A stretch of 64,000 bases of DNA from Paraglaciecola polaris LMG 21857 (GTDB taxonomy: Bacteria > Pseudomonadota > Gammaproteobacteria > Enterobacterales > Alteromonadaceae). The notes under the pieces are model-generated. The model made no database searches and had not been told where the DNA came from. It was given only the letters and a program-made list of their open reading frames with translations. Below, piece by piece: positions 1-50,941 of this stretch (position 1 is the stretch's first letter; each line of letters starts with the position of its first letter). The DNA lies in NCBI RefSeq assembly GCF_000315055.1, contig NZ_BAER01000023.1, forward strand, positions 1 to 64,000. Direction: 5' to 3'. The translations under genes were made by a program, and so were the position numbers.

Positions 1-22
1 ATAATGATTGTTTAAGTTAGTG

Positions 23-385: not shown

Positions 386-543
386 CAGTCTGTTCCAGTT
401 TATCTTTCATATTCTCGGTCACTTATCATTCAGTAATTTGATAGCAAGTTTAAAGATTGAATCGTCACACATAATTTTGAAACGGCTTAGTTTCTTCTTG
501 ATCGCAGTTCTCGAAGTTTACAGGCACCAGCCTACTTCAATAA

Positions 544-909: not shown

Positions 910-946
910 ATAAACCTCTCGCCAGGCGTTTCTCCCAGGCTATTCA

Positions 947-6253: not shown

Positions 6254-6269
6254 AATAATTACCTCTGCC

Positions 6270-7064: not shown

Positions 7065-7583
7065 GATTCGATCTCCTGATATTGTTAGAAAATAAAGTTC
7101 TGAAACTTGTGCTGTTCCTTCAGCGGACGACAGAAATATAAACACAGATCCTTCAAAGATCAAAACTAAATTCTGTCTATAACTCCTTGTTATTTAACAT
7201 TTTTGTTGTAGGATTTAGGTTTTTTAGCTTTTCGTTTTCACTGTTGATAAGAGTGAGCTTTCTACGATTTTCAATAACGATATTGATCTAAATCCCTGTG
7301 TTGTATGGGATAATATTTTCAGCTAGCGGAGAAAGTTGTGAAAATTAGCGAGGCTAAAAGGTGGAAAATGAACATTTTTTTAGAGGACTGAAAAAGATCA
7401 AAAAAAGATCTAAATTATTTTTCGATAGTCTCAAGGTTGATTAAAAAAAACACAAAAATCATGATTTGAGACTTTCCCCCAATTCAAATGATAATTGAAG
7501 AGGAATATTTCAACGTAAATATCGGTGTGAGCGGATAGCAATATCGGGAACGTTTATCAGGGCGGTGTATTCATGGCAGACCA
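7065..7583. other. AT-rich gap upstream of tnsA (promoter region; possible decayed element end)
   Basis: No convincing gene is seen in these 519 bases. The stretch is AT-rich and must hold the tnsA promoter. GATCTAAAT occurs at 7285-7293 and 7407-7415 with a related GATCAAAACTAAAT at 7158-7171. These could be degenerate TnsB sites, because tnsA is normally next to the element's right end. No clear terminal TGT/ACA with flanking duplication was found, so a transposon end here is not supported. Confidence 0.35.
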
Positions 7584-8786
7584 TTACTCAATAAAGAAGC
7601 GTCTTACCTTTTCTCTAAACAGTTTTCCAAACAGTCTATGGTCACCAGATTCATATCTCGCTCTTCCTGCAACAATACATGGTGTTATCCCAATCTCAGA
7701 AGAAGCAAGTCGAACGCTAGTGGCATCTTTTATTGAATCGGCATTCCACTTCTCTTTTGGAATTAACGCTTCTTGAGCCAATGCATCTGCTTCTTGTTCA
7801 ACTTGATCTCCACCTTGAGCATCAAGATCATCCAGAAACCATTGTTCTGTTTTATCCAGATGCAAAGCGATATGTGCTAGTTCGTGCATTAGTGAAAACC
7901 AAAAGTTATCTAACCTGTCGTGCCTGAGTGTCAGCGCAACAACTGGGTTACCTTTATGAGCTAAACACACGGCACCATCGAGATAAGTCTTAGGTAAGTG
8001 AGGTTCAATAATAAGGTGGATCCCATGCTTGTTGAGATACTCTTTAGCTAAGACAGGCCCTTGCTCAGACCATGAAAGTTGAGCAAGTTTTCGCATCCAT
8101 GCTTGGTTAACCGTATGCTTCAAATATTTATTTGTAAGTGTAACGTCCTGTGCTTTTTTCAAAACTCTTATTTGCCAAGCCCACAAAGCATATTGGTCTG
8201 TTTCTTTGTCGTTAGTACGCAAGTGTGCTGAAGTTCTTAGCAATGCTGGTGCCAGCTTAAAACCATTCGGGACGGATGAGATAAACGAGGTTAATGTCTC
8301 GGCACAGTATTCTTTCAAGTCTCTGGCAGAACCACTGAATCCATCAAAATAACCACGAGATCGCATTTCGGTAATAGGGAATGCTTCCCAATTGACATCG
8401 CTAGATATCGCTCTTTGATGTGCAGGCTCTTTAATCAATAAATCTAGTGAGATACCTAATCCTTCATGCAACTTACGGATCATATTTAGACTAAGGTTAC
8501 GTGTGCCATTTAGTACTTCGGTAACCTTAGGTGCTGACCCTATGTAAGGAATTAAGTCTTTTTTAATTAACCCCTGTTGCTCCATTCGAAACTTTATTGC
8601 TTCAATAGGTTCAGGTGGATCAATTGGGAACGTTTCCTGTTCATACTTTTCAATTAAAAGAGCTAGAACCTCTAGCTCGTCTGATTCAGGAGAGTTAGGC
8701 TCAAGATCAAGATCCATCAAACTCACAAGTCGGGCTAACGCTTGTTCATGATCTTGTTTAGATTTAATTATCTTAATGTTTTTCAT
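7584..8786 (-). CDS. HigA-type antitoxin fused to an ImmA/IrrE metallopeptidase
   Basis: A 400-residue two-domain protein. Residues 1-120 resemble HigA antitoxins: the acidic N-terminal helix, then an Xre helix-turn-helix with KKDLIPYIGSAPKVTEVLNG. Residues 160-400 form an ImmA/IrrE-like zinc peptidase with the HExxH motif HELAH at about residues 300-304. HigA antitoxins normally neutralise the HigB mRNA interferase and repress their own operon; ImmA/IrrE domains cleave repressors in response to stress. The HigB-like gene lies immediately upstream, 9 bases away on the same strand. The fusion suggests an antitoxin whose own peptidase could trigger toxin release, but that is inference. Confidence 0.82.
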   Translation of the reverse strand: MKNIKIIKSKQDHEQALARLVSLMDLDLEPNSPESDELEVLALLIEKYEQETFPIDPPEPIEAIKFRMEQQGLIKKDLIPYIGSAPKVTEVLNGTRNLSLNMIRKLHEGLGISLDLLIKEPAHQRAISSDVNWEAFPITEMRSRGYFDGFSGSARDLKEYCAETLTSFISSVPNGFKLAPALLRTSAHLRTNDKETDQYALWAWQIRVLKKAQDVTLTNKYLKHTVNQAWMRKLAQLSWSEQGPVLAKEYLNKHGIHLIIEPHLPKTYLDGAVCLAHKGNPVVALTLRHDRLDNFWFSLMHELAHIALHLDKTEQWFLDDLDAQGGDQVEQEADALAQEALIPKEKWNADSIKDATSVRLASSEIGITPCIVAGRARYESGDHRLFGKLFREKVRRFFIE

Positions 8787-8795
8787 GTTCCCTTC

Positions 8796-9080
8796 CTAAA
8801 AGCGTTGCTTGTCGTACTGCGCATGGGTTCCAACCCACTCAACAACAGCAATGCCATTTTTATATTTAACTCTTACAACCAGTCGATAATGATTACCTTT
8901 GATATTAAAGATAACTTTATTGCCTGCTAGAAAATCTGCGCTGCTATATCGATTCTTAATGTCTTGAGTCGTTTTCCACTCAGATTTTGTTGCCTCATCG
9001 AACCAAGCATCTAGCGCCGCTTTTACATTCGCATGCTTTTGACTAAACTTTAAGAGTTTGTCTCTTCCTAAGACTTTCAT
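8796..9080 (-). CDS. higB: HigB-like mRNA interferase toxin
   Basis: A 94-residue basic protein with the HigB/RelE-fold pattern of the HigB_toxin family: an N-terminal helix, DIKNRYSSADFLAGNKVIFNI in the middle and a C-terminal strand containing VVEWVGTHAQYDK. The C-terminal His and Tyr/Lys residues fit the ribosome-dependent mRNA cleaving site of the family. The order toxin then antitoxin is typical of HigBA and unlike RelBE. The operator repeats at 9093-9134 lie just upstream. Confidence is good for the family and lower for activity. Confidence 0.8.
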   Translation of the reverse strand: MKVLGRDKLLKFSQKHANVKAALDAWFDEATKSEWKTTQDIKNRYSSADFLAGNKVIFNIKGNHYRLVVRVKYKNGIAVVEWVGTHAQYDKQRF

Positions 9081-9092
9081 TAAACCTCGAAG

Positions 9093-9134
9093 TTCCCTAA
9101 AAGGGAATTATAGTTATTATTTCCGAAAAGGGAA
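9093..9134. promoter_or_regulatory. Inverted-repeat operator upstream of higBA
   Basis: A perfect inverted repeat, TTCCCT-AAA-AGGGAA, occupies 9093-9107, and a second imperfect copy, TTCCGAAAAGGGAA, lies at 9121-9134. Both are within 55 bases of the toxin start. The arrangement of two sites in front of a TA operon is what a self-repressing HigA-type antitoxin would bind. Confidence 0.6.
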
Positions 9135-9221
9135 GCTAATTGTCGCAACAGATACTGTTCCAATAAACCATGCTGAGTTTATACCTACGCTTAAAATCAA
9201 TACCACAAACAGCTTTGTTTA

Positions 9222-10322
9222 TCAGTCATTTAAAATAAAATCGGCACCGCTTTCTGCTTGATTTTGTGTAAACACCTGCTTTGCCCAAAAAGCTTCAACA
9301 TCAGGAACTCTAATCTGTTGTAACTGACTAAATAATTTCTGATACCAAAACTTCCACTCTTTTCGTTTCAAAGTATCAACAGTATTAGGTCGTGCTTCAT
9401 CGCTTATTCTGCTTACAAGGTGGGCTGCATCTCTCGGACGAAGCTCGTCTTCTATGATTGCTTCAAGAGATCGAAATTGACCCTCTACACGGCTTCGAAT
9501 TTCGTATACTTCATCCCATGTATTAAGCTTGTCCAGTAATACTCCGTCCAGCGTGTTCCAATTTACTTTTATGGTAGGCTCTGGGTCACGTAAGTTTTCA
9601 ATTTCGATCTCAATTAAACCCTGCGCATCTTCGGTAAAGGGATAAAACGCTAATCGATCTGTGCCATTCTTGTGCTTAAACAAGTCTTTAGCTTTTTTTG
9701 CATCCTGATTACAAACATCGCAAAGTGGAATAAGATTATCTGGATGTACTGAAAAGATGGGATATTTCGATTTGCATAACTGGTGGTCATAGTCGGCACG
9801 CCACTGTTCACCGTCAGTGACAGCAGCTCTAAATGCTGCAAGCTCTTTCATACCGCACGCTTTGCATATGTTTCCGTTTACTAGCTGTGCTCGATAGTCA
9901 TTAAAGTGATCTGTGATCTTTATACCACCAGATGCTGTGACAATAGGCACTAAATCTTTGGTTGCGCAATATAAGTGAGTACACAATGATTTCAAGGATT
10001 CTCGACAAGGCTTATTCATAAAGTCGAACAAATTTCTTTGAGGATTTTGAAAGAATATTTGAAGATCTTGGTTGTCCCTCATCACCTCAAATAATTGCTG
10101 TTTTGGATCATGACCAGCCGCTTGCAAGGCGTTGAATAACACTTCGTATTTATCACGAGTCGGAGTATTTGCCCAACAGGCATCCCCAATAGCGCTATGT
10201 GTAAAAAGTACTCGACCAAAGGCATTGGTAATAACAGATTGCTTGATAAAATGTAAAAGTTCTGCATTTAGTAATCTAAATACTTCAAATTTTGGTGTGT
10301 TGGGTGCTAAACAAAACAACAT
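9222..10322 (-). CDS. HNH endonuclease, PtuB-like partner of the adjacent ATPase
   Basis: A 366-residue protein with a central HNH nuclease module. A CKACG pair lies near residue 150, the catalytic-type DYDHQLC near 177, and CDVCN near 200, followed by a lysine-rich HNH helix. Paired cysteines suggest a structural zinc. The flanking regions are not recognised and make it longer than typical PtuB proteins. The start overlaps the stop of the upstream AAA ATPase by one base (TAATG), so the two are coupled. An AAA ATPase followed by an HNH protein is the layout of Septu (PtuA-PtuB). The assignment rests on layout and motifs and not on close similarity. Confidence 0.7.
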   Translation of the reverse strand: MLFCLAPNTPKFEVFRLLNAELLHFIKQSVITNAFGRVLFTHSAIGDACWANTPTRDKYEVLFNALQAAGHDPKQQLFEVMRDNQDLQIFFQNPQRNLFDFMNKPCRESLKSLCTHLYCATKDLVPIVTASGGIKITDHFNDYRAQLVNGNICKACGMKELAAFRAAVTDGEQWRADYDHQLCKSKYPIFSVHPDNLIPLCDVCNQDAKKAKDLFKHKNGTDRLAFYPFTEDAQGLIEIEIENLRDPEPTIKVNWNTLDGVLLDKLNTWDEVYEIRSRVEGQFRSLEAIIEDELRPRDAAHLVSRISDEARPNTVDTLKRKEWKFWYQKLFSQLQQIRVPDVEAFWAKQVFTQNQAESGADFILND

Positions 10323-12037
10323 TATTGGCTTAACTTCCTTATTAAATAAGCTTTTTCAGCTGATAAGCCAAGATTTTCTTCAACCCAGTCTTTGGCGTGG
10401 TCATCGCCTTGTTTTAGCTGCTCACGAATTTCATCAATTACACTTTGTGATATCAATGAGCGCAGGTCAAATAAGTCCTTAATCAACACATCAAATGATG
10501 CACCATAAGTTTCATTTTGCGCCACTTTCATTTCAATTAAACCATCATCGCTACGGCGGAATTGATACACATTATTTCGCTTGAGCGAAGAAACCATAAA
10601 AGGCGAATGGGTAGAGATAAATAGCTGAGCTTTCTCATTGTCTATACCAATCGTATGTTCAACGAATGAATGAAAGTAGGTGCGCCAAGACGGATTAAGG
10701 TGAGTTTCAGGTTCATCAAGTAAAAACAATACTCTACTGTCTTTGTAAATTGAGGCCATGGATAAAATTTGAATCAGTTGCGCTTCACCGTCGGATAAAT
10801 CATCAAATTCAATGCATTGCTGCCTATCTGTTAACTTGAGAGACAAAACAATAATTGGTGATTTCCATTTTTGTGGTCGTTTTACCGAACGATCGAAATT
10901 ATCTTGTCTTAGTTGACGTTTGGTTTCGACTTGCCAAAAGTCCGCCGCCAGCAGTTGTAAACGGTAAAGCTTTTCGAATAACACTTGTGGTGTAAAAAAA
11001 CTGTTTTCCAAAATGCTCTGAACACGGCTATCGCTAAAATCTATAGTGATTTCGCCTGCTAAGTAGTCCAATTCAAATTGGTTAAAAAAATCTTCAGAGG
11101 TTTTGCTCACTCTCGGTAACGTTTGGAAGTGGCAAGAGGGTATGTTGGCCAAACATTTTATCAATTTAGCTATATCTAACAAAGCACCGGCATCATGCGT
11201 GAATTTACGTAAATCATAACGTAGTGTCACCGAATGAATTTTATTGAAGCGCTGTTTTCCTTGCCAGATAGATTGCTGCTGGACATCTGCAAGCATACCC
11301 ATGCTCGCCAGCATAAGTGCGGTGGTATCCTGATCAAAATACTTAAGGCGAGGTAAGACTGTTGATCTTAAACCAATATCGGCGTTATCCGACAGTGATG
11401 AATCTTTAGGTAAGATTGGAAATAACGCGGAATGACGAGTTTGATAATAGTGGTAAGCTTCTCTAAATTGACGTTCAAGCAATTCGATGTCCGATTCAGT
11501 CAGGTGCTTACCTTTTTCATTTTTCGCAGCATTAATTGCGGCGAATCGCTGTTCCCATTGACGCTTTACGTTCATCACATCCAAATACTGGATGTTATTT
11601 TTCATAAAGGCGCGTTGTAGGTTTTCATTTAGACCGGACGAATAACCTATAATCTGACTTGGCAGTATTTCTTCCTCTATGCCTGAATGTTCACGTGAAT
11701 CAATATCGACTAAGGTGCCATCACGATAGAGTTTGATGATTCCCTGTTGGTCGATTTGAACAGCATAGGTGTTGGCGTGTTCTTCAGAGTCGTAAGCCTG
11801 ATTAGTATAGCGAAGCTCAATCGCCAAATTTGAAAACCAATTGCGGCACTTGAAATCACTGCGCAGAAATCGTTCTAAATAACCAAAACTTTCTGCAATC
11901 AGTTCTAATAGTTGAGATTTACCAGAACCATTAATACCGATAAATGCAATAATATTGCCTTGTGCATTATCAAAGCTAAAAGTTTGGTCTTTCAAACCTT
12001 TATATTGCCCGTTCAGAGTCAGTGACAGCAAACGCAT
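10322..12037 (-). CDS. AAA ATPase, PtuA/RloA-like, of a Septu-type defence pair
   Basis: A 571-residue ABC/SMC-type AAA ATPase. Walker A is GINGSGKS near residues 34-41. The signature-like segment DLSDGEAQLIQILS is near 415, Walker B is VLFLLDEPETHLNP near 430, and the switch histidine lies in FISTHSPFMVSS. The ATG at 12037 overlaps the hsdS stop codon, so it belongs to the hsdM-hsdS transcript. Such ATPases pair with nucleases in Septu, retron-Septu and RloA-like anti-phage systems, where ATP binding holds the nuclease in check. Its place inside a type I restriction operon is reminiscent of prrC and rlo genes, which guard such systems. Confidence 0.75.
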   Translation of the reverse strand: MRLLSLTLNGQYKGLKDQTFSFDNAQGNIIAFIGINGSGKSQLLELIAESFGYLERFLRSDFKCRNWFSNLAIELRYTNQAYDSEEHANTYAVQIDQQGIIKLYRDGTLVDIDSREHSGIEEEILPSQIIGYSSGLNENLQRAFMKNNIQYLDVMNVKRQWEQRFAAINAAKNEKGKHLTESDIELLERQFREAYHYYQTRHSALFPILPKDSSLSDNADIGLRSTVLPRLKYFDQDTTALMLASMGMLADVQQQSIWQGKQRFNKIHSVTLRYDLRKFTHDAGALLDIAKLIKCLANIPSCHFQTLPRVSKTSEDFFNQFELDYLAGEITIDFSDSRVQSILENSFFTPQVLFEKLYRLQLLAADFWQVETKRQLRQDNFDRSVKRPQKWKSPIIVLSLKLTDRQQCIEFDDLSDGEAQLIQILSMASIYKDSRVLFLLDEPETHLNPSWRTYFHSFVEHTIGIDNEKAQLFISTHSPFMVSSLKRNNVYQFRRSDDGLIEMKVAQNETYGASFDVLIKDLFDLRSLISQSVIDEIREQLKQGDDHAKDWVEENLGLSAEKAYLIRKLSQ

Positions 12038-13427
12038 CAAACTTTTCTCCTTGCAGCTGTTTTCTTCTTGGGCATCTTTTTATTAGCAAGAGCTTCACGC
12101 TTGGATTTGATTTTTGCAAGCAAAACTTCGGCGCTGTTATCGCCACTGATTAGCTCAGAGTTGGCGGCGCGCCAATCGGCTGTGAGTTCACCGCAAAATG
12201 CTTTAGCTAAAATAGATTGAGTGAGGTTGTTAACCCGCTGCTGGGCTGCTTGTACTTGTTGTTCTATTTTATCGGCGTGGGCGAAGAGTTGTTCGACACG
12301 GCGGACGATCTCGATTTGTTCAGTTGATGTTGGAATACTGAGAGGAAATGCCTTCAATTTTTGGGCATTGATATTTGATTGGCTGACACCGTCTGACTTG
12401 ACTCGATAGCAGTAATCTTTAGCGTCTGGGCTATTCAAGAGGTAATTCAGATACTCAGCATTCAAGTTTTTTTTGCACAGGATGCGTATTAAATAACCAG
12501 CATAAATTGCTTCTCTCTCCCCTCGATAAATTGACGTCTTACCAACTAACTCAGGGCTATTCGTTCGATTGAAAAGTACGTCACCAGGCAAAAGTTTGTA
12601 TTTATCAATCTCTACAGGATCAGACGTATAAACAAGATTTGTCCAGTCCAACTTACCGTCTTGCAAATTACCCATTCTTAAAACAGGTACAGTTCCTTCT
12701 GGCTTTGATTTTGAAGATGAACCATAAGTAGGTTTTTCAACAAAATCACCTAAAGTGCCATCTACCCATGATTCAATATTTATATTTTGGTTATCCCGCC
12801 ACTCCTCGGTCAACTTACCACTCACGGCGGCAGCGAGGACGGATTGGCGGAAGGTTTTTAGGATTTGTGGGATTCGGTCGAGGCGGGCTTTGGTGGTTTC
12901 CACCTGCGCCAGCAGGGTATCGAGTTTATCGGCTATGATTTTTTGTTCAGCTAGGGGGGGAGTCCGACAGGAAATGCCTCAATAAATGCACGAGGTACGC
13001 GACGCAAGCCCACCGCACCAGTCATGTTCGCGGCACCTTCTTGTAAAAATTTATGGGACTTTACGATAGAAAACAAAAATCGTGTTGAAACTTCTTTAAT
13101 CGCTGGCCGAAGAACATAAAACTCAGAGCTTCCAGCTCCAATACCATTTGGTAATCCTCGAACAATAGCGGCTTTTCCATTTTCGAAACATGGAGTTACT
13201 TTAGCTACAATGACGTCATCATCTTTAAAGTTGGTATATGATTTTTTAATCTCACCCCATGGTTTTTCATCAAAACATAAGATCCCATTAAAATTTGTAG
13301 GGGCATGCGTCATCGGTATAAAACCAGATAATGTCTCTGGCTCAGCATCTAATTTTTTGGGGTTAACATCCGCAATATCAATTATTTTAGTTAATACCCA
13401 TTCTTTAGGAAAATTAACTTCGCTCAT
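12037..13427 (-). pseudogene. hsdS: Type I restriction specificity subunit HsdS, split by a one-base frameshift
   Basis: Two open frames together make one HsdS of normal size (about 460 residues). The first (12951-13427) starts at an ATG overlapping the hsdM stop and encodes the first target-recognition domain, ending ...FPVGLPP then stop. The second continues from LAEQKIIADKLDTLLAQVETTKARLD through the central conserved helix, the second recognition domain and the C-terminal helical repeat ending at 12037. The break falls exactly in a run of seven C (coding strand). One extra C would restore a continuous frame; one fewer would not. HsdS chooses the DNA sequence recognised by the methylase and nuclease. 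The state may be a phase-variable OFF form, a real mutation or a sequencing error. Confidence 0.85.
12954..12960. repeat. G7 homopolymer at the hsdS frame break (candidate phase-variation tract)
   Basis: Seven G on the plus strand (C7 in the coding strand) sit directly before the premature TAG of the first hsdS segment. With eight bases the frame reads on through LAEQK into the second segment. Slipped-strand changes at such tracts switch type I specificity genes in other bacteria. Confidence 0.7.
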
Positions 13428-15040
13428 CAATTCGCCCCTTGCAACGCTGCCAATAACTCAGCTAGCTCACCTAAGGCAGCGGTTAATTCGTCTTTGGCTT
13501 CTTTTGCCAACACATCCGGCTCTGGCAAGTCAGAAGCATCAACACTGTCTTTATCTTTAAGCCAAGAAATATCCAGTGAGTCGCCTTTGGTATTGGCAAT
13601 CCAGTCTCGGGCAAAACAGCGCCAACGGCTGTGGACGAGTTTGTCATCCACGCCTTGGTTCTCTGCTACTTTCGTTTTATCAACACTGATTTGTTCAGCA
13701 CCAAAACTGTATTCACCTTCGGCTCTTTTGGTAGTGCCGTCGGCCTTATCACCGAACACATCTTCAAACGGTTTAAGGTGTTGCTCTCCAAAGGGCGTGC
13801 GTTTACCAAAATTTGGCATATTGGTACGCAAGTCATAGACCCACACGTTTTGGGTGCAGTTTTTGTCTTGTAACTTGTCGGTGGTGCTGCCTTTAGTGAA
13901 AAACAGCACATTAGTTTTCACTCCAGCGGCGTAAAAAATTCCGGTAGGTAGGCGTAATATAGTGTGTAAGTTGCACTTGTTCATTAAATCGCGTCGAATT
14001 TCGGCTCCTCTCCCGGCCTCAAATAATACGTTGTCGGGTAATACTACAGCTGCACGGCCACCGGGTTTTAAGTTTCGGTAAATGTGCTGCAAAAAGGCCA
14101 GCTGTTTGTTTGACGTATCGTAAGTGAGATCGTCGCGGGTGATGCTTGCATCGCCACCTTTGCTGGTGCCAAAAGGCGGGTTGGCCAAAATAACATCGGC
14201 TTTGGCTAAGCTTGCACCTACTTGCCCCAAGGCATTGCCCAAATGCACCACACCTTCGTCGTCACCTTCCATGCCATGTAATAAGCAGTTCATTAAGGCT
14301 AAACGGCGGGTTGAAGGCACCAGTTCTACACCAATAAAGGCTTTGTTCTTTTGAAAATTTTTATCTTTGTCGCTTAAGTTATATAAATCATCAGTATGGT
14401 CTTTGATGTACTGGTCAGCAGCAATTAAGAAACCGGCAGTACCTGCTGCTGGGTCTTGCACTACTTCGCCAGCCTGAGGTTTAATGCATCTGACGATCGA
14501 ATCTATTAAGTCTCGGGGTGTAAAATACTGGCCAGCGCCCGATTTGGTTTCGTTTGCATTTTTCTCTAATAAGCCTTCGTATAAATCACCTAAACCGTCT
14601 TTTTGTACACTGAACCAATCGATTTGATCGAGGGTTTTAATCATCTGCTCTAAATGGCGCGGCTCACGTAATCGGGTTTGGGCGTCGGCATAAATGGCAC
14701 TGATGAGAGGGTCTTCATGTACGATAACCTCTTCAACTTTATCTTCGCCACTTGGTTTTTCAGCTTTTACTACAGTCGTGCGCTTGCCGGTGGATAAAGC
14801 AAGTAGAATAGCTTTGTAGTCGTTAAGCAGATTAATGCCTGATTTACTGCTCAAGTCTGTCCACCGGCAGCCCTCGGGTAAGGTGTGTTTATCTAAGGTC
14901 TCAGCTTCGGTGTTTTCGTGTACCATTTTAATAAACAGCAGTAATACTAATTCAGTTACGTAGTCGCTGTAGTTAATGCCGTCGTCGCGCAATACATCAC
15001 ATAAATTCCATAGTTTTTGCACGATACTGTTGTTGGTCAT
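13427..15040 (-). CDS. hsdM: Type I restriction-modification adenine methyltransferase HsdM
   Basis: A 537-residue N6-adenine DNA methyltransferase. An N-terminal helical domain (residues 1-130, with TNNSIVQKLWNLCDVLRDDG) is followed by SAM-binding motif I, DPAAGTAGFL, near residue 197, and the catalytic motif IV, NPPFG, near residue 286. It forms the M2S1 methylase with HsdS and the R2M2S1 restriction complex with HsdR. The stop overlaps the hsdS start by one base. hsdR lies upstream on the same strand with fic in between, so the order is hsdR-fic-hsdM-hsdS. The methylase can act only if hsdS is intact. Confidence 0.93.
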   Translation of the reverse strand: MTNNSIVQKLWNLCDVLRDDGINYSDYVTELVLLLFIKMVHENTEAETLDKHTLPEGCRWTDLSSKSGINLLNDYKAILLALSTGKRTTVVKAEKPSGEDKVEEVIVHEDPLISAIYADAQTRLREPRHLEQMIKTLDQIDWFSVQKDGLGDLYEGLLEKNANETKSGAGQYFTPRDLIDSIVRCIKPQAGEVVQDPAAGTAGFLIAADQYIKDHTDDLYNLSDKDKNFQKNKAFIGVELVPSTRRLALMNCLLHGMEGDDEGVVHLGNALGQVGASLAKADVILANPPFGTSKGGDASITRDDLTYDTSNKQLAFLQHIYRNLKPGGRAAVVLPDNVLFEAGRGAEIRRDLMNKCNLHTILRLPTGIFYAAGVKTNVLFFTKGSTTDKLQDKNCTQNVWVYDLRTNMPNFGKRTPFGEQHLKPFEDVFGDKADGTTKRAEGEYSFGAEQISVDKTKVAENQGVDDKLVHSRWRCFARDWIANTKGDSLDISWLKDKDSVDASDLPEPDVLAKEAKDELTAALGELAELLAALQGAN

Positions 15041-15110
15041 GGGTGTTCCTAATTATTAAGTTTAGCCGTGTCTGATAAGTTGAAGCCAGGTAAATTCTAT
15101 GCCAGATAAA

Positions 15111-16217
15111 TCAGGCGTAAGGTTCAAATTTGTTGCTGTCTAGGGTCATTAATTGCATCAGTTTGGGATGCACAAAGAGTTTTTCTTTACCCACTTGTTG
15201 TTCTTGTAATACACCAATATCTACCAGTTGTTTAAGGTAGACCGATGCGGTTTGCCGTTTGGCAATGTCTTTATCTACCAAATTGGCAATGCGGCAATAG
15301 GGTTGCTCGAAAATGATTTGTACTAATTCGAAGCTATACATTTTTGGTAAGTTTTGCCTAATAAACTCGCTGGTATGTTCAATCAACGCTTTAACCGCGG
15401 CTATTTTAGCCGTAGTCCAATTAGCCATCTCGGTCACGCCCGTCAACATGTATATGATCCATGCTTGCCAGTCACCGTCTTTGGTGACGCCATTTAACAA
15501 AGCGTAATAGTCGGCTTTGTGCTGCACAATGTAGCGACTTAAATACAAGATTGGCAGGGTTAACAAGTCTTGCTCGATCAAATACAGAACATTCAATATA
15601 CGACCAGTTCGGCCGTTGCCATCATAAAAAGGGTGAATGGCTTCAAACTGATAATGACTAATGGTCATTTTAATCAGCGGATCTAGACTGTCGTCTTCAT
15701 GCAGAAATTGCTCCCAATTACTGAGTAAATCACGGATCTCTTTTTCACCCACTGGCGGCGTGTAAATAATCTCACCGCGACTAGGGTTGGCAATAACAGT
15801 ACCGGGCACTTTGCGCACATCCATTTGCGTGCCTTTTAAGGTACTACATACCTCAATTGCGGTATTGGTGCACAAAGGCCGCTCTTTTAATCGGGTAAAA
15901 CTCTCATATAAAGCGGTGCGATAACGCAACGCTTCTTTAGTGGCAGGGTCGGCCTGACTATCTTCCTGAGCATGTTGAAATAACTTGTCTGACGTGGTGA
16001 TAATGTTTTCAATCTCGGAACTGTCTTTTGCTTCTAACAAGGGCAATAGATTAATTAACAAGCCTTGGTTAGGTAATAATGCCCCAGCCTGTTTAAGTTC
16101 GGCCAAGGCGGCACGTGCCGGAATACAGGCTTTAAGCACAGCAATAGAATCCACCACCTCTGCTGCGGGTGGCAATGGCGGAAGTTGATTAAAGGGTATA
16201 TCGGCTTGCCAAGTCAT
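15111..16217 (-). CDS. Fic-family AMP-transferase with N-terminal inhibitory motif and C-terminal winged helix
   Basis: A 368-residue Fic/DOC protein. The active-site motif HPFYDGNGRTGR is intact at about residues 193-204. An N-terminal inhibitory helix motif, DSSEIENI, near residues 63-70 marks it as a class II, self-inhibited enzyme. The N-terminal Fic_N region begins IPFNQLPPLPP. Residues 290-368 look like a winged helix (RIANLVDKDIAKRQTASVYLKQLVDIGVL). Such proteins usually transfer AMP to a protein hydroxyl and are common passengers inside type I restriction loci. It is 71 bases upstream of hsdM. The upstream region carries several TGTCGA/TCGACA repeats that its own winged helix might bind. 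Confidence 0.87.
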   Translation of the reverse strand: MTWQADIPFNQLPPLPPAAEVVDSIAVLKACIPARAALAELKQAGALLPNQGLLINLLPLLEAKDSSEIENIITTSDKLFQHAQEDSQADPATKEALRYRTALYESFTRLKERPLCTNTAIEVCSTLKGTQMDVRKVPGTVIANPSRGEIIYTPPVGEKEIRDLLSNWEQFLHEDDSLDPLIKMTISHYQFEAIHPFYDGNGRTGRILNVLYLIEQDLLTLPILYLSRYIVQHKADYYALLNGVTKDGDWQAWIIYMLTGVTEMANWTTAKIAAVKALIEHTSEFIRQNLPKMYSFELVQIIFEQPYCRIANLVDKDIAKRQTASVYLKQLVDIGVLQEQQVGKEKLFVHPKLMQLMTLDSNKFEPYA

Positions 16218-16237
16218 GTTTAGTTTATTCTACTTTT

Positions 16238-16344
16238 TCGACATGAAGTGAGTATATGTCGATGAGCTCGACAGGTAAAGTCATTATGTCGATAAAAGAC
16301 GTTTTTTTCGACACGACTTGCGCTGATGTCGATGTTATCGACAT
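16238..16344. promoter_or_regulatory. Cluster of TGTCGA/TCGACA inverted repeats upstream of fic
   Basis: Three inverted repeats lie in the 276-base gap between hsdR and fic. TGTCGA at 16257-16262 pairs with TCGACA at 16268-16273. TGTCGA at 16287-16292 pairs with TCGACA at 16308-16313. The best copy, ATGTCGAT-GTT-ATCGACAT, is at 16326-16344. A fourth TCGACA half-site is at 16238-16243. The density in noncoding DNA directly before fic suggests operators for the fic-hsdM-hsdS transcript. The rest of the gap (to 16493) holds nothing else recognisable. Confidence 0.6.
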
Positions 16345-16493
16345 GAAGGCTTAACATGTTTATAAAATTCATTTTCATGTACATGATTAACACTATGCAT
16401 ATAGAGTTTGAGATTTTTTATACACGTTGTGTTTCTTATGTATAGAGAATTGGACTTGTTGTCTTTGCATTTTTTATTCGTCTAGTTAGCGGC

Positions 16494-19400
16494 CTAGGCC
16501 CACATTGCATCACTAAGTTCATCCAATACCACGTCCAGCTGATTTACCAATACTTTGTCTAATTGTTTGGCACCACCATGTTCGGCAAAACGTTGATTAA
16601 CAAAATCACGGTCGATAATCACTTCGTGGGTAAGTTGTTTTGCTAAGCGTTCTAGCCATTTACGCTGGGCAGGCAGCCAATTGTGTTGGCTGTAAATGTT
16701 TTGCATGGCTTTGGCAACCCGCTGTTCAAAAGGGATGAGTGCCTCGCCTAAGGCCGCCCGGCGAATATGCCCAATGATACTGGCGGCAATGTCCTGATTG
16801 GTTTGATTACGTACAGCACTTTGTAACTTTGCTTCGGAATACCCAGCACTATCGAGTAATAACTTAATTTCTTTAAGTTGTTCACGGCTTAGGTCACGGG
16901 GTTTATTGACCACAACAGCTAACGCTATCGACTGATTTAGCTGGTCTTTTATAAACTGGTTAAAGCTGTCGAGGTAATCTTCTGGTCTGGCATAATTATC
17001 ATAGCTTTGGCTTCGGTTTTGAATTTCATCTGCATGCTCTGAAATAACCGGTCTGTATTCGCTACCAAGCAAAGCTGATACCTCAGCTAATTGATTAAGC
17101 AAGCCAGTATGTTGCTGCACAAAATGATTAGCTTGTTGCGGGCCGAGTTCACGCAGGTGTTTATGCAAGGTTTTCGGTTCAACCCCCCATAAACCTTCTA
17201 ACTCATCGAGTTTTTGTTTGAGTTGTGGTTTGAATTCCGCTTTTTTATGCGCCTTGCGTAGTACCCGCATGACTTTTTGACTGAGCTGGTTAAGTATTAC
17301 ATCAGCTTGTGTTTCTCCCTTTTGTTCACCGGGGCTGTTGAGTGCCTTATCTAAATGCTCTGGGTCAGTCAGTTCATCCATTAATTGTTCAAGGGTGACG
17401 TTTGGGTCTTTGACTAAGGGTTTCATGGTATTGATGGCTTGCAAGGCAGCATAAATATCGACGGGGTCATAAATACGGAACACTGTTTTACCGATTCCAT
17501 CACAACGGCGAGTGGCGCGGCCAATCATTTGCTCATATAAAATGCGTGACTTCACTCGGCGCATAAATACTAGGTTGCATATTGTGGGTACATCTATGCC
17601 AGTAGTTAGCAGGTCAACGGTAATGGCAATATTGGGATAATGTTCATTTTTATATTGGCGAATAAGTTGACTGACCTTATCACTCTGGCCGGTAATTTTG
17701 GCAACCGCAGCTTGGTTGTATTCTCCGTTGTAAAGCTCTTTAAATGCCTCGTCCAAAAGTCGCTTTACCATATCTGCGTGTAGGTCGGTGGCGCAGAAAA
17801 TCATGGTTTTCTCGTCGCTAAAGGGATCGATTTCCATGGCTAGTTGGGTGCAAATAACCTTATTAAAGTTTTCGTTAATAACGCGGCGGTTAAACGCATC
17901 CACCTCAAAATTGAGCTCATCTTCGAGCTCGTCTGTTTCTACTTCACCGGTGTCGGTATTAATACTGCTAACTACCGCCCCTTTTTCAAACTTAATGCCT
18001 TTTTGAGTAAGCAGGGTTTCGTAACGTATAGGCGGTTCATGATCAATCAGCCAATCATCTGCAACCGCTTCGCGATAAGAATAGGTATACACAGGTTTAC
18101 CAAATACTTCGCTGGTATGTTTGGCTGGGGTGGCTGTTAAGCCTATTTTGACAGCATCGAAATAATCTAATACTCGGCGATAAGTCGACAAATACTGATT
18201 AGCATCGCGGGTGGCTAATTCACCTTCGGTCATATCTTGGTCAAGGGTATAACCCCTATGGGCTTCATCGACAATTATGCAATCGAATCGATCAACTGTG
18301 GGTGGGTTGTCTGACATAAAAACCCGCTTAACCATCGCTTGAACTGTGGCAACTTGTATTCGCGTTTCTGCCTCAGCAGCCATATCACCTAGTAGTGCTA
18401 TGTTATAAATTTTTGACAGAGTTTGGTTTTGTTCAAGCGGCGCTTCTTTAAATGTATCAATCGCTTGTTGTCCCAATGCTGTTCGGTCGACTAGAAACAA
18501 GATACGCTTAAAGCGCTCTGCTTTTAGAAAACGATACATTAAGCCAAGAATGGTACGTGTTTTACCCGTACCGGTTGCCATCGCTAATAAACAGCTTTGC
18601 TGATCATGTTTTAAGGCGCTCTCAACTTCTTTTATCGCCTCTTCTTGATAATCACGCAGTTTAAGGTAGGCAAAACCTTCCTGATTTAACTGTTGTTCGG
18701 CTTTGTCTTTACTGCGTGTGAGTTTATCTAGCAAACCCTGTGGGCTATGAAAGTTGCTTAGAGGTTTGGCTAGATTGCTATGCGCTCGGGTATCACGAAA
18801 CCATGTCCCTGAGTGTTCTGCCAATTGCTTAACAAACGGACGACCATTGCATGAGTAAACAAAGGGCACATGATAATGGCCATCTTCTGCAAATGGCCAT
18901 GCTACCGTTAAACCTTGTAATTCCCATGCTGGGATCATCTTTGCAGTATTGTGAAAGCCCTTGGAATAGCGCTCAGCTTGAGTGATTTTACCTGCCACAT
19001 TGGTATTTTCTCTTTTGGCTTCAACAATGGCAATGGGGGTTAAACCGCAAAATAGGACGTAATCTGCATAGCCTTTTTTACCTTTGAGCTCAGTGGGCCA
19101 TTCGGCAATAGCCAAGTTTTTGCCTTTTTGAGGTCTTATTCCGTTTTGGTAAGTTAAGCTTTGCGTATCTGCCTGCCAACCCGCTTCGACTAGATGCTGG
19201 TCAATCACTATACGGGTGACTTCTTCATTTACGTACAAAGCCTTACTGGTTTTACGTAATTGAGCGCTATAAATCTTTTGCTGCTTCTTAGTTTCTTCTC
19301 GCTGCTTTGTTGGAGCGCTTTCCAGCTGTTGTTGCAGCGTGGCTATTTTGCTTTCAAACTCTTGAGTTTGTTGTGATTGCTGTCGTTCATGCAAGGCCAA

Positions 19401-20039
19401 CTGTTGCTGATACGTTTTGGACTCTTTATCCATTTGCTCAGCAAGTACTGCATATTCTTCCTTTTCTAAACTAATCAGTTGATTGAGCTTTTGGTCTGAT
19501 TCAAGTTGTTGGTTGGCCTCTGACAATTGGCTGGATAATTGCTGAATCTGATTCTGTAAGGCGCTAAGTTGCGCACTTGGGTCCGGCGGAGCAGTAAAGG
19601 AGCCAGGTTTAAAGTTGTCAGTATTTTTAGCAAAAGAACGATGAAACCAAATAGCCAGATTGCGCGCTACTTTTAGACCATCCATGGCTTCTTTGTGTTT
19701 GGTTTTAAATTGATGAGTCGCTTTGTTGCCTTCGACTCTGAGGGTATAAAACAATTCTTTTATCTGTGGCTCAAAACCAATTTCACGATGAATTTTGTAG
19801 AGTAAGTCTGATTGTGAAGTTGAGTCATCAAATACAACACCACAACGAGCGGCAACTTCTTGAGCAAAGGCTTCACCGAGTTGGCGTAGTTTGATTAAGG
19901 TGGTATTAGGATCAGCAGCGAAAGCCTGCTCAGCATTAACAGCTAGCTGAAAAAAAATCGGGTCATGCTCTTCAAGGAAAGTAAAATTCGATGTGATGTT
20001 CTTCGCCAAAATAAAATACTCTCCGTGTCCATGAATCAA
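16494..20039 (-). CDS. hsdR: Type I restriction enzyme motor/nuclease subunit HsdR
   Basis: A 1181-residue HsdR. An N-terminal DUF4145-like helical region (residues 25-140) and a coiled coil rich in Q and E (about 155-260) precede the nuclease domain, whose D...EAK motif is seen in YADYVLFCGLTPIAIVEAKRE near residue 340. The superfamily 2 motor follows, with Walker A ATGTGKT near 489, DEAH in IIVDEAHRG near 590, and motif VI QMIGRATR near 845. The C-terminal region binds the methylase core. Length and layout match EcoEI-like (type IB) subunits. It is the first gene of the locus. Its promoter should lie in 20040-20240. Confidence 0.93.
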   Translation of the reverse strand: MIHGHGEYFILAKNITSNFTFLEEHDPIFFQLAVNAEQAFAADPNTTLIKLRQLGEAFAQEVAARCGVVFDDSTSQSDLLYKIHREIGFEPQIKELFYTLRVEGNKATHQFKTKHKEAMDGLKVARNLAIWFHRSFAKNTDNFKPGSFTAPPDPSAQLSALQNQIQQLSSQLSEANQQLESDQKLNQLISLEKEEYAVLAEQMDKESKTYQQQLALHERQQSQQTQEFESKIATLQQQLESAPTKQREETKKQQKIYSAQLRKTSKALYVNEEVTRIVIDQHLVEAGWQADTQSLTYQNGIRPQKGKNLAIAEWPTELKGKKGYADYVLFCGLTPIAIVEAKRENTNVAGKITQAERYSKGFHNTAKMIPAWELQGLTVAWPFAEDGHYHVPFVYSCNGRPFVKQLAEHSGTWFRDTRAHSNLAKPLSNFHSPQGLLDKLTRSKDKAEQQLNQEGFAYLKLRDYQEEAIKEVESALKHDQQSCLLAMATGTGKTRTILGLMYRFLKAERFKRILFLVDRTALGQQAIDTFKEAPLEQNQTLSKIYNIALLGDMAAEAETRIQVATVQAMVKRVFMSDNPPTVDRFDCIIVDEAHRGYTLDQDMTEGELATRDANQYLSTYRRVLDYFDAVKIGLTATPAKHTSEVFGKPVYTYSYREAVADDWLIDHEPPIRYETLLTQKGIKFEKGAVVSSINTDTGEVETDELEDELNFEVDAFNRRVINENFNKVICTQLAMEIDPFSDEKTMIFCATDLHADMVKRLLDEAFKELYNGEYNQAAVAKITGQSDKVSQLIRQYKNEHYPNIAITVDLLTTGIDVPTICNLVFMRRVKSRILYEQMIGRATRRCDGIGKTVFRIYDPVDIYAALQAINTMKPLVKDPNVTLEQLMDELTDPEHLDKALNSPGEQKGETQADVILNQLSQKVMRVLRKAHKKAEFKPQLKQKLDELEGLWGVEPKTLHKHLRELGPQQANHFVQQHTGLLNQLAEVSALLGSEYRPVISEHADEIQNRSQSYDNYARPEDYLDSFNQFIKDQLNQSIALAVVVNKPRDLSREQLKEIKLLLDSAGYSEAKLQSAVRNQTNQDIAASIIGHIRRAALGEALIPFEQRVAKAMQNIYSQHNWLPAQRKWLERLAKQLTHEVIIDRDFVNQRFAEHGGAKQLDKVLVNQLDVVLDELSDAMWA

Positions 20040-20242
20040 CTTAGATTATTTTGTATTGCTGCACTTTTTCTTGATGAAAAAGTAGAGTTAAATCTTAACC
20101 AACCTTGCCATCGTATCAGTGACTAAGTAAAAACACATCTTTTTAAGTAATTGACCTTTATGGGGAAAAGTGACCTCTATTAAGAACGGGGTCACTTTCC
20201 ATCTTTATCTGAGAAGTTCCAACATTATTTGAATACCACTCC
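20040..20242. other. Noncoding stretch between hsdR and the older element's tip
   Basis: No gene is seen. The segment must contain the hsdR promoter. AAGTTCCAACATTATTT at 20214-20230 may be a fourth, diverged end repeat of the older element, in line with the three clear ones that follow. GTGACC and GGTCACT flank a short inverted repeat around 20169-20197. Confidence 0.4.
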
Positions 20243-20309
20243 AGTTCCAAACTTTAATTCCAAGTTTCAAACTTTAATTCTAAGTTTCAAACTTTAATTA
20301 GAACGCACA
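20243..20309. repeat. Right-end repeats and tip of the older Tn7-like element
   Basis: CAAACTTTAATT occurs three times at exactly 20-bp spacing (20248-20259, 20268-20279, 20288-20299), each preceded by AGTTTC or AGTTCC. Read inward from the tip (minus strand) the sequence begins TGTGCGTT, then AATTAAAGTTTGAAACTT twice and a copy ending TTTGGAACTGG. This closely resembles the TnsB-site style of Tn7 (AATAAAGT...AAACT), and overlapping, closely packed sites are typical of a Tn7 right end. The tip ACA ends at 20309. Its final A is shared with the ATGGC duplication made by the younger insertion. Confidence 0.75.
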
Positions 20310-20313
20310 TGGC
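20309..20313. repeat. Target-site duplication, left copy (ATGGC)
   Basis: ATGGC directly precedes the TGT tip of the younger element and is identical to the five bases that follow its other tip (50942-50946). Five-base duplications are the rule for Tn7-family insertion. Confidence 0.9.
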
Positions 20314-20425
20314 TGTAAGTGGATATTAATATTGGTACCAAAAGTATATTAATATTGGTACCAATTTTATTAATCAGTTAACGTTTGGTCAAATATAGTC
20401 TTTATTATTAAACTCATTTGGTACT
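20314..20425. repeat. Left end of the younger element with TTGGTACCAA repeats
   Basis: The perfect palindrome TTGGTACCAA occurs at 20332-20341 and 20355-20364, each preceded by ATATTAATA. Weaker copies, TTGGTCAAA (20385-20393) and TTGGTACT (20418-20425), lie further in. The same palindrome recurs four times in the other end, so these are probable TnsB-binding sites. The next 186 bases up to the first gene are very AT-rich and otherwise blank. Confidence 0.85.
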
Positions 20426-24674: not shown

Positions 24675-24756
24675 TTGTCCCCAAAAACGTGACAAAAACT
24701 CATGTCCCCATTATGATGACAAAATCATTTGTCCCGAAATTGGGGAATTGTGACAA
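24675..24756. promoter_or_regulatory. Three-copy operator array (27-bp period) between xre and tnsD
   Basis: TTGTCCCC at 24675, ATGTCCCC at 24702 and TTGTCCCG at 24729 start exactly 27 bases apart. The first two are each followed by GACAA, 21 bases from start to end (24691-24695 and 24718-24722). The third unit ends in GACAA at 24752-24756. Each unit thus has inverted half-sites, TTGTC and GACAA. The array covers the start codons of both genes, the expected layout for a repressor that switches off both sides. Confidence 0.75.
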
Positions 24757-26303
24757 CATTACCTTTTTTTCCAAAACTATATGAACACGAACTTTTCTAT
24801 AGCGGATTAGCTAGATATAAAGTGCGGTGTGGGGTGTTGACCGATAAGCAATTGCTATTTGATGTATTTGATAAGCGTACGATTTTCGCTTCACCTGAAA
24901 TACCCAATGGTCTTGAGGCTGCCATTGCTAATATTCGACCGAAAATGAAGTGTTCCGGGTTAGATATTATTGAAAATCACACTTTATATCCGTTATATAC
25001 AGGCCTAAGTCCTGAAAATATAAGAAACAAAATTAAGAATGAAATGCTCAGCTCTGTAAATAATACCTATACCACTGCTGCTGGGTTAGCTGCGTGTATG
25101 TTGAAAACTTTTTCTTATATGAGATATTGTTCAGAGTGCGTGAAAGACCAGTTAGCCATGCACGGCGAACCATTTTGGGACAGACGTTGGTTTGGAATAT
25201 TTACTACATGCTGTCCTATTCATGGATTGACATTCCAATCTACAAATATGTTAATCCATGATTTTTCTAGACACGCATTTATTCCGTTAGTAGATGTAGT
25301 CTTTGATCAATATAATGTTGAAACAAACAAGGCTGAACGGCAAGAGCAGCTCATATCAAAGGCCGCTACAAAAATCATTTCATCTAGTCATAAGCTTAAT
25401 ATCTCATTCGACAAATTAACTGATTTCTATCGGTCTATTGCGTATGAACATAATTTCAATAAAAGAAGTTCGATTGATCAGTTAGCTGTTGCATCATTTG
25501 TCAGACAATTTTGGAAACGACAGTGGCTAGTTGATCGAGGATTCGGAGATCAGGATTTTGATACAAGAATCGCATATATTTTTCGGAAGCATCGTAAACA
25601 ACATCAATATCCATATCATATTATTGCTGGATTACCTTTTTTTAATGGTGATATTGAGAAATGGTGGGGTGCTCTGTTGGCCGTAAGCAAGCTTAAAAAC
25701 GCGAGTCAAAGCTTGCCTCAAGTGGTTAATCTACCAATAAATACCTCTGAAATTCGTGACCTAAAACAGTCATGGTTTACTCTGGTAAAGCAGTACGGGC
25801 CAAAAAAGGCTAGATATCTAAATACTGAAAGTTACAACCTTTACACCAAACTTTATCGCAATGATAAGACTTGGTTACTTGAAATAAATGCTCAAAACAG
25901 AATCGTCAGAGAGAATAAAAACTGCCGAGTAAATTGGTGTAAAAGAGATATTTCAACAGTAAAGCAGCTATTTACTATTTTAAATAGTGTAGATGATATC
26001 TACTCCCCAAGACGCTCAAAAAGATGGTTTCTCTTACAATTATCTAATTCAGCAAGTATTGAACACAATCTATACCGATTGCCTAAGTGTGCGGCTTTTC
26101 TTGATAGCTATAATGAAACGGTAGAGGAGTATCAATGCAGACGACTTACCCAAGTTACCCTTAAACTAGTTAGTAAAAAAAGTCGCGTTGAACCTTGGCA
26201 ACTTTATCGAAGTGCTAGAATCAATACTCAAAGAGACATATCATCTACAGTCATTAAAGTAGGTGTTTGGTGTCATAATTGGTTGATAGAGCATATAAAA
26301 TAA
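24750..26303 (+). CDS. tnsD: TnsD/TniQ target-site selector of the younger element
   Basis: A TniQ-family protein of 517 residues if it starts at the GTG at 24750, preceded by GGGGA at a spacing of 3-4 bases. This start gives the TnsD-like N terminus MTTLPFFPKLYEHELFYSGLAR. An in-frame TTG at 24729 is less likely because it lies inside the operator. The zinc motif is C127, C130, C155, H158. Later conserved segments include YIFRKHRKQHQYPYHI and RSKRWFLLQLSN. TnsD recognises the end of glmS, in agreement with the insertion site of this element. Its 3' end overlaps tnsE. It is unusual in being separated from, and opposite to, tnsABC. Confidence 0.92.
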   Translation: MTTLPFFPKLYEHELFYSGLARYKVRCGVLTDKQLLFDVFDKRTIFASPEIPNGLEAAIANIRPKMKCSGLDIIENHTLYPLYTGLSPENIRNKIKNEMLSSVNNTYTTAAGLAACMLKTFSYMRYCSECVKDQLAMHGEPFWDRRWFGIFTTCCPIHGLTFQSTNMLIHDFSRHAFIPLVDVVFDQYNVETNKAERQEQLISKAATKIISSSHKLNISFDKLTDFYRSIAYEHNFNKRSSIDQLAVASFVRQFWKRQWLVDRGFGDQDFDTRIAYIFRKHRKQHQYPYHIIAGLPFFNGDIEKWWGALLAVSKLKNASQSLPQVVNLPINTSEIRDLKQSWFTLVKQYGPKKARYLNTESYNLYTKLYRNDKTWLLEINAQNRIVRENKNCRVNWCKRDISTVKQLFTILNSVDDIYSPRRSKRWFLLQLSNSASIEHNLYRLPKCAAFLDSYNETVEEYQCRRLTQVTLKLVSKKSRVEPWQLYRSARINTQRDISSTVIKVGVWCHNWLIEHIK

Positions 26304-27904
26304 AGGGCGTTGAAGAAAATGATCAATTGCTCTACATCGGTGGAATTTTCAGGTTTTTTGGTAATAGTGAATGGTATATCCAAGTTAGATTCAGTAAATC
26401 AAAGAAAAAATCTGTTCTAGCATCCCTTATACCTGATCTCTGTGTTGGTCGTTTTTATAATGTACCAGACATTAGTGATGCCAAAGGTAAAACGGCACTA
26501 ACAAGAACTAATTGGAGTAATGTTAAAGCTGTCAAAAGTGGAAAGGAACTTGCTCTTAATCCAATCAATGGGGTAAATAGAAGTGAAAAATATTTTCTGT
26601 TGCAGAAAAAGGACATGTGGTTAGCTATACCTCAACTTGAACTTGCTAGAAGTTTGTTTTTTCAAAATAATAAAATGTTTGGTTATGCACAGTCACCAGT
26701 AGCGTTAAATGTTGATTTTAGGAGATCAAACGTATCTCAAAGTAACTTGATGATTGAAGTAATGGATTCAGCGCAATTGTCTAAAGGGCAATTTGAAAAA
26801 TGTTTTAACGCAACACAACTCGCCTATACTCTTTGTGACTCGTCTGCCTTGAATTCATTTCTCTCAGTTCATGAAAACTTTCGATTGAAACAAAAAACTT
26901 CAAAGGTAGGTGGGTGTGAAGTTACTTGGTGGAATTTTGGTTTTAATTTGCCTAGTTTAAAAGGGGCAAAAATGGAAATGATGCTGTCAGAGCATATTTC
27001 AACTTATCAAGGCCAAAATCTATATGTCGCTAACGAGATTAAGGGCATTACAGGTATTCCGCACACACTTCCTTTAGACATTGAATTTATTAGTCAGAAA
27101 TGGGCAAAATTAGCTGTTTCTCAATCAACGTTAAATGAAGAAAAACTAGAGGTTGCGGGTGAGTTCATCATTGACGATGAACAAGGGGCTAGTAGTTTTT
27201 CGCAAACTAAAATTATTTCTTCTCATGGAATTGGCACGTTTTCCCTTTCACCAAATCGTTCAGCTAGAACTAAATCATCGAAGGGGAAAGTTCGAATCAT
27301 AAATGAAACCGGCGAAGCAGAGGTGAGTGGCTCAGAACTGATAAATACAGATCTTCCGACACTATTAGGTTCTGCAAGTGCCGCAATTTTTGTTGCAACT
27401 ACAGAAGATGATGGGGATGATAAAAATATATTTGATAATTTTAGGTCGATGTTAAAAAAACTATGCGAAGAGTCAGATTTGACATTAGCTGAACTTAGAA
27501 TACAAAAATTACGAAAAATTAAGGGCTTCAAATCACATATGAAGAAAGACGGTACTGGTACAAGAAAAGCCGCAGTAGCTCACCTGACTAGCCCATCTGA
27601 AAATTTTGAAACAATTACCCTAATTGATGTCGACCAGAGTGATTTTCCAACCTCAGGCAGCAAAAAAAGTCTTTCAACGTTAATTTTTAAATTCACCCAT
27701 CTGGATGACGCAAGGGCTAAAGCTGAAACTATTCTTGACGAATTAGTTATCAAATCGTTACGTTGGCCAAGGAACTCCTTTAAGAAAAATAATATTAGTA
27801 CACAAAATGCTAACCACCCTCCATATTATTGGGTAAGAAAAGTAGATGATGACGCGATTGATAGGTGGGTTGAAAAAACCAAAGAGAAAATTCAAAAATT
27901 GTGA
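26279..27904 (+). CDS. tnsE: TnsE target selector for replicating/conjugating DNA
   Basis: A 541-residue homologue of Tn7 TnsE (about 538 residues). The N terminus, LLYIGGIFRFFGNSEWYIQVRF, corresponds to the TnsE start. The segment IPQLELARSLFF near residue 113 is nearly identical to Tn7 TnsE. The C-terminal conserved domain ends with SLRWPRNSF and a W-rich tail, WVEKTKEKIQKL. TnsE guides insertion into mobile plasmids and lagging-strand DNA through the sliding clamp. The frame opens at a TTG (26279) inside the tnsD 3' end; no in-frame ATG lies near, so the start is uncertain. It gives this element both the glmS and the plasmid-targeting pathway. Confidence 0.92.
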   Translation: MVDRAYKIKGVEENDQLLYIGGIFRFFGNSEWYIQVRFSKSKKKSVLASLIPDLCVGRFYNVPDISDAKGKTALTRTNWSNVKAVKSGKELALNPINGVNRSEKYFLLQKKDMWLAIPQLELARSLFFQNNKMFGYAQSPVALNVDFRRSNVSQSNLMIEVMDSAQLSKGQFEKCFNATQLAYTLCDSSALNSFLSVHENFRLKQKTSKVGGCEVTWWNFGFNLPSLKGAKMEMMLSEHISTYQGQNLYVANEIKGITGIPHTLPLDIEFISQKWAKLAVSQSTLNEEKLEVAGEFIIDDEQGASSFSQTKIISSHGIGTFSLSPNRSARTKSSKGKVRIINETGEAEVSGSELINTDLPTLLGSASAAIFVATTEDDGDDKNIFDNFRSMLKKLCEESDLTLAELRIQKLRKIKGFKSHMKKDGTGTRKAAVAHLTSPSENFETITLIDVDQSDFPTSGSKKSLSTLIFKFTHLDDARAKAETILDELVIKSLRWPRNSFKKNNISTQNANHPPYYWVRKVDDDAIDRWVEKTKEKIQKL

Positions 27905-47905: not shown

Positions 47906-47907
47906 GT

Positions 47908-50791: not shown

Positions 50792-50839
50792 AAGTGTTCT
50801 CGTTACTTGCTATATAGGTAAGCATAACGGAACTTTTAA

Positions 50840-50941
50840 TTGGTACCAAATTTAATCGATACTTTGTAAATTTGGTACCAATATTAATATTGTTGGTACC
50901 AAATATAATATACTTGGTACCAATATTAATATGCTCTTACA
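50840..50941. repeat. Right end of the younger element with four TTGGTACCAA repeats
   Basis: Perfect TTGGTACCAA palindromes occur at 50840-50849, 50872-50881, 50893-50902 and 50914-50923, spaced 32, 21 and 21 bases. The last is followed by TATTAATATGCTCTTACA to the tip. The outer 28 bases match the left end at 26 positions. More, closer sites on the tnsA side follow the Tn7 rule for right ends. Confidence 0.9.

Follow-up and report, generated by a model that had tools for sequence, protein, structure and literature searches.

Tn7-like genomic islands with multiple ends were reportedly described by Parks and Peters in 2007. According to the excerpted text of PMC8649781, which cites Peters 2014, multiple L and R ends may arise when one element inserts within or next to another that is already present. 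In Tn7 itself, as the excerpts of PMC11406308 and PMC2918618 describe it, TnsD binds the 3' end of glmS and the insertion falls just downstream, leaving the target intact, and a resident copy inhibits a second insertion nearby. Tandem Tn7-like insertion is already known, and the locus presented here, contained in a 64,000-nucleotide stretch of Paraglaciecola polaris DNA (the window), is a well-resolved new case: a set of short repeats is the right end of an older Tn7-like element, alongside which a younger one has landed at glmS. The layers, the transposase and most of the insertion order can be read directly at the locus, whose unusual side is the stacking of ends with nearly identical TnsB-type sites.

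The older element resembles Tn7 (NZ_CP024247.1; 7pik) in its tnsABC order, its tips of the TGT/ACA type and a terminal site identical at 13 of 17 positions, as well as in its adjoining R sites, its spaced L sites and the presumed targeting of glmS by TnsD, features that the excerpt of PMC11406308 gives for Tn7. It differs in its TnsB, only 32% identical to that of Tn7, in its right end, which has three sites at 20 bp where the same excerpt gives four overlapping 22-bp sites, and in the position of its cargo, between tnsA and the right end; no tnsE was seen among the tns ORFs and the four cargo ORFs scanned on a second contig, C109. A nearer relative lies in another genus of the same family (genome G477) and shares the types of both ends, called here R(A) for the right and L(A) for the left, the spacing of the L sites and related TnsA-D proteins; it differs in its 45.3-kb length, in its cargo and in being a single insertion with an exact duplication. 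From ORF reading, we take this cargo to be nitrate reductase and molybdenum cofactor genes. The multi-end islands of Peters 2014, as relayed in the excerpt of PMC8649781, likewise have one element in or beside another and several L and R ends; compared by description, the present locus adds identified layers, the older layer's transposase and a relative that is complete. No tandem insertion at glmS was found in the excerpts of PMC10293859 and PMC6360697, our search of the literature on tandem, multiple or non-autonomous Tn7-like insertion gave no title on the Paraglaciecola locus, and none was found on Tn7-like elements in Paraglaciecola.

Two Tn7-like ends meeting beside glmS

The right end R(A) of the older element consists of three TnsB-type sites on the forward strand (20243-20302), set at exactly 20 bp (20243-20262, 20263-20282 and 20283-20302), copies 2 and 3 being 90% and 85% identical to copy 1. 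They are followed by the outer tip ACGCACA (20303-20309, forward strand), by TGGC (20310-20313) and, from 20314, by the tip TGTAAG of the younger element. The triple pattern, allowing up to 3 mismatches, is matched once in the window and never in 100 dinucleotide shuffles, which rules out a chance origin; the single R(A) 17-mer is a weaker signal, found 3 times against 0.94 expected and at least 3 times in 7 of the 100 shuffles. The 13/17 identity with Tn7 is that of the R(A) site AGTTTAAGACTTTATTG with the right-end site AGTTTCAAACTTTAATT, the Tn7 right end being taken from plasmid record NZ_CP024247.1, and it was equalled in 27 of 2000 mononucleotide shuffles of the 233-base Tn7 stretch.

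The younger element occupies 20314-50941 (30,628 bp) and is flanked by exact 5-bp duplications ATGGC, whose left copy (20309-20313) has base 20309 in common with the older tip and whose right copy lies at 50942-50946. Its left end (20314-20372, forward strand) carries sites of the TTGGTACCAATATTAATAT type behind the tip TGTAAG, and its right end (50835-50941, reverse strand) has four sites and the tip CTTACA, 25 bp from the stop codon of glmS. This target gene (50967-52799, reverse strand) was named by ORF reading, and glmS DNA was matched in 21 of 22 genomes of the genus, our own included. With tnsC, tnsB and tnsA beside the right end (46271-50791, reverse strand), tnsD and tnsE at 24729-27904 on the forward strand (Pfam PF15978 and PF18623), TGT/ACA tips and a 5-bp duplication, the younger element has the features of the Tn7-like elements of the glmS group. 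Its TnsB is 32% identical to that of the older element. Between 21781 and 46238, PADLOC models matched GajA/GajB-like proteins, a type I Zorya system (A-D), a type IIG-like enzyme and candidate PDC families.

Leaving out the younger element together with its duplication puts the older right tip 24 bp from the glmS stop. The preliminary description had recognized the core of this arrangement: three repeats of 20-bp period ending in ACA at 20309 and resembling Tn7 TnsB sites, forming the right tip of an older Tn7-like element, with a younger one inserted between this tip and glmS and reusing the last A plus TGGC for its duplication. The coordinates, the shuffles, the Tn7 site and the exact ATGGC copies uphold this core. 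An unannotated 70-bp repeat thus becomes an ordered layer of a defence-gene island, and the overlap of a target duplication with an older tip lets successive Tn7-like elements be ordered.

The left end of the older element

Contig C124 begins with the window, so nothing lies upstream on the same contig. A left tip matching the right one had been called for upstream, and our search of the same genome located it on C109, the only place outside the window with multiple R(A)/L(A)-type sites; elsewhere the matches were single and mostly weaker. The tip L(A), TGTGCGAG, begins at C109:87879, is 93% identical over 27 bases to the R(A) tip and leads into three sites at 87890, 87956 and 88011 (spacings of 66 and 55 bp); it would lie 4.9 kb upstream of window base 1.

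C109 is placed by synteny. G012, G015, G008, G007 and G002 all have the order glmS, insert, DUF445, histidine kinase, LysR, MBL, XTPase, while in G006 the DUF445 gene is at the end of the retrieved stretch; beside L(A), C109 carries the same DUF445-HK-LysR-MBL-XTPase series (names by ORF reading except DUF445). On this gene order, C109 is most probably the far side of the glmS locus. The end of C109 aligns to the G012 stretch L055 up to 17548 (86%) and the start of the window from 17541 (91%), on the same strand, so that the two contigs would abut in the order of this one relative; window bases 2-946 are 92.6% identical to L055 17541-18486, which in G012 lies beside an R(A) end at glmS. C109 and C124 have no exact suffix-prefix overlap of at least 4 bases. 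If they abut, the older element would measure about 25.2 kb (C109:87879-92756 plus window 1-20309). Another contig of this genome (G000) carries a lone R(A)-like right tip, CTCGTACA, at C101:597-624 (L134 597-624); it was considered as a gap contig and rejected, the tip being located elsewhere.

The flanks of the older element differ, AAGGC preceding the left tip and TGGCC following the right one. There is no exact 5-bp duplication, and the two agree only with a slip of one base and one substitution. The TGGCC target proposed in the preliminary description is consequently seen on the right side only, and the TGGCC copy anticipated beside the left tip is absent.

Genes of the older element

The older element has one set of the TnsA endonuclease, the TnsB transposase, the TnsC ATPase and the TnsD selector, and reads from the left end through cargo, tnsD-C-B-A (window 947-7163) and defence genes to the right end, with tips of the TGT...ACA type and TnsB-type sites adjoining in R and spaced in L. 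All four tns genes are on the reverse strand: tnsD at 947-2524 (PF15978/PF06527), tnsC at 2521-4113 (PF13401/PF05621), tnsB at 4085-6253 (Tn7 TnsB 7pik, E 3.8e-106) and tnsA at 6270-7163 (Pfam PF08722/PF08721). The left-hand cargo in the window (1-946, reverse strand), continuous with C109 by the G012 comparison, holds an ORF without Pfam match (23-385) and another with an Xre/MbcA/ParS C-terminal domain (544-909). On C109, the left-end cargo includes a papain-like protease (L008 10197-11045; Pfam Peptidase_C70 E 6e-7, C39_2 E 1e-6).

The defence cargo (7584-20039, reverse strand), assigned by PADLOC models, comprises PD-Lambda-2 A/B, a PtuA-like ATPase with a PDC-M62B/PtuB-like partner, the match of the latter being weak, and a type I restriction-modification system with a SoFic-type gene. 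The type I specificity subunit (12037-13430) may be split over two ORFs, of 288 aa and, upstream, 159 aa; the best profile for the 288-aa ORF is matched over its C-terminal part (178-460 of 461). With this cargo in between, tnsA is 13 kb from the right end, a distance that counts against joining the two in one element: G477 has about 2.5 kb there, and in both the younger element and the plasmid copy of Tn7 tnsA is close to the right end. No inverted or direct repeats of at least 12 bases were found at 7100-7700, where a second boundary beside tnsA might have been.

Two further tips

The earlier picture of two tips was right in that both are present; it was incomplete, having missed two others. 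R(C), an end of another Tn7-like type, lies just inside R(A) on the forward strand (20165-20239) and has a hairpin, two TnsB-type sites and the tip GAATACCAC. In G020, an end of this type stands at glmS without R(A), with a similar tip and, by eye, a similar hairpin; R(C) in the window lacks the last A of the tip seen there. The junction R(C)-TCC-R(A) recurs in G012 (91% over 102 bp), and in G009 a left tip of the R(C) type abuts an R(A) tip. The R(C) pattern occurs in 5 of 22 genus genomes, our own included, and its backwards control in 0; a pattern search of our own genome, allowing up to 3 mismatches, found no L(C) end.

The other, R0, is a further right tip of the R(A) type that abuts L(A) on C109. 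The junction of the two (C109:87847-87906; L008 9848-9907) is tail-to-head and forms a near-perfect palindrome, with 28-nt arms that are 89% complementary and 4 nt apart. A similar junction at about 12287-12345 of the G012 stretch L055 looks fused by deletion. With R0 included, the chromosome reads R0 remnant, older element, younger element, glmS.

Distribution of R(A) ends and their pairing with TnsABCD

With up to 3 mismatches allowed, the R(A) double site is present in 8 of 22 genomes of the genus and 15 of 395 of the family, our own being counted in both; the backwards control gave 0 in every genome listed. Among 20 other genus genomes whose glmS flank was inspected, 9 have R(A) within about 100 bp of the glmS stop, the tip in G015 and G006 being CGCAAA and not CGCACA. 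Other elements with these repeats at glmS, whose existence the preliminary description had made a check, thus exist, and the one in G477 is complete. It spans 152651-197938 (45,288 bp) at glmS between exact AAAGG duplications, and its tnsABCD lies beside R(A) at glmS, the TnsA, TnsB, TnsC and TnsD proteins being 51, 52, 52 and 41% identical to the older set (tblastn matches covering less than 25% of the query were excluded here and at the glmS loci). Its L sites have the same 66- and 55-bp spacing as L(A) on C109, and the two left ends are 70% identical over 97 bases. The older TnsB is 52% identical to that of G477 and 31-35% to those of the 15 other loci compared, Tn7 included (16 chosen loci, each represented by its best piece with E of 1e-20 or better, weaker matches being left out). 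The strongest argument for assigning the repeats at 20243-20309 to the older TnsABCD comes from G477.

This relative surfaced only through the end-pattern search of the family. Searches with the older TnsB gave at best 33% identity outside our own genome among 40 near relatives, 31-34% among 394 genomes of the order (E 1e-100 or better), and less than 60% in all 1237 plasmid records, the ten matches listed being at 29.5-35.6%; in the genome contig set, 17 stretches matched a pattern and none encoded a relative. In the seven further genomes of the genus that carry the double site, a whole-genome search found the older TnsB matched in G002 only, at two places, with 25% and 28% identity. Matches to tns genes near R(A)-type ends were obtained in 2 of 15 genomes, our own and G477, in stretches of 8.9 kb (G011) to 64 kb, a length at which distant tns genes could be missed. 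The glmS-side ends of the more distant TnsB loci carry other but related sites, those of G028, G345, G210 and G327 being close to R(A) by eye, so that site sequence alone does not define the lineage.

A 7,372-bp element of G016 (L064 7876-15247; G016:C34:537875-545246) has 28-bp tips like R(A) and L(A) and CTTGC on both sides; it has no tns match, and its contig has no glmS match. Mismatch-free copies of its right tip occur at two other places in G016 and once in G001.

Proposed history of the locus

The locus very probably arose as different Tn7-like elements, directed by TnsD, inserted one after another at a single attTn7 site. The older element, which has R(A)/L(A) ends and carries its own tnsABCD, would have entered immediately downstream of glmS, next to R0, the remnant right tip of a still older element. 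A second, distantly related Tn7-like element would then have targeted the still intact 3' end of glmS. Its duplication shares one base with the older tip, and its arrival would have moved the older element 30.6 kb away. The choice of site at each insertion would be that of TnsD, the order of events is the one that the overlap of the duplication with the older tip suggests, and the left and right ends of the older element presumably come from one insertion.

That the two tips, which abut within 4 bp, could be one composite right end of a single element seems to us scarcely credible: the younger element is complete alone with its exact ATGGC duplication, R(A) stands at glmS without younger-type sites in the 9 of 20 other genus genomes mentioned above, and the two TnsBs share only the 32% identity already given. 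Somewhat less improbable, though still quite unlikely, is that R(A) is an orphan 70-bp end and that the element holding tnsABCD and the defence genes ends at R(C), at 20239. R(C), with its hairpin, two sites and tip, does sit between these genes and R(A), but in G477, whose tnsABCD is the nearest relative found, the ends are R(A)/L(A), our own genome has L(A) and gave no L(C) within 3 mismatches, and the R(C) tip misses the last A present in G020.

The unequal flanks, AAGGC and TGGCC, are the point at which the single insertion of the older element may fail. Either both flanks have mutated, or the ends of two insertions have been joined by a deletion, and the older element may owe its left and right ends to different events. 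The older element would then be a chimera, in which a deletion between tandem elements fused one element's left part (L(A), orf 23 and orf 544) with another's right part (tnsABCD, the defence genes and R(C)-R(A)). This fits the resemblance of the left part to unit 2 of G012 and of the right boundary, with its composite R(C)-TCC-R(A) end, to unit 1, and the homology to G012 and G002 reaches only to window base 946, next to the tnsD stop codon. Against it, G012 unit 2 and the small G002 element could equally be deletion derivatives of a window-type ancestor, and no recombination scar was identified. We hold such a chimera to be possible and would still bet against it; it would in any case remain a stack of Tn7-like elements at glmS.

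Under serial insertion, the arrival of the younger element beside the older is expected, since a distantly related element with different sites should escape recognition, whereas the R0/L(A) pair is less expected because their sites are nearly identical. The R0 element would have been inactive or too diverged, or immunity would be weak in the R(A)/L(A) lineage. Ends of the same type are stacked in R0 and L(A) here, in the successive units of G012 and in the two right tips of G015, one of them damaged, and such side-by-side ends bear on how far target immunity holds in nature. Could the R(A)/L(A) lineage, its target immunity weak or absent, stack ends with near-identical sites at attTn7 and persist largely as transposase-free passengers moved in trans? 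Tns matches in only 2 of the 15 genomes with these ends, in the stretches covered, and the tns-free G016 element with its matching ends and exact duplication are what prompts the passenger idea. We advance this as a speculation that we think rather improbable.

A minor observation concerns the R(A) ends at glmS in G001, G016, G005, G007, G006 and G008, in which a GC-rich hairpin is visible by eye shortly inside the end; it could serve to terminate the glmS transcript.
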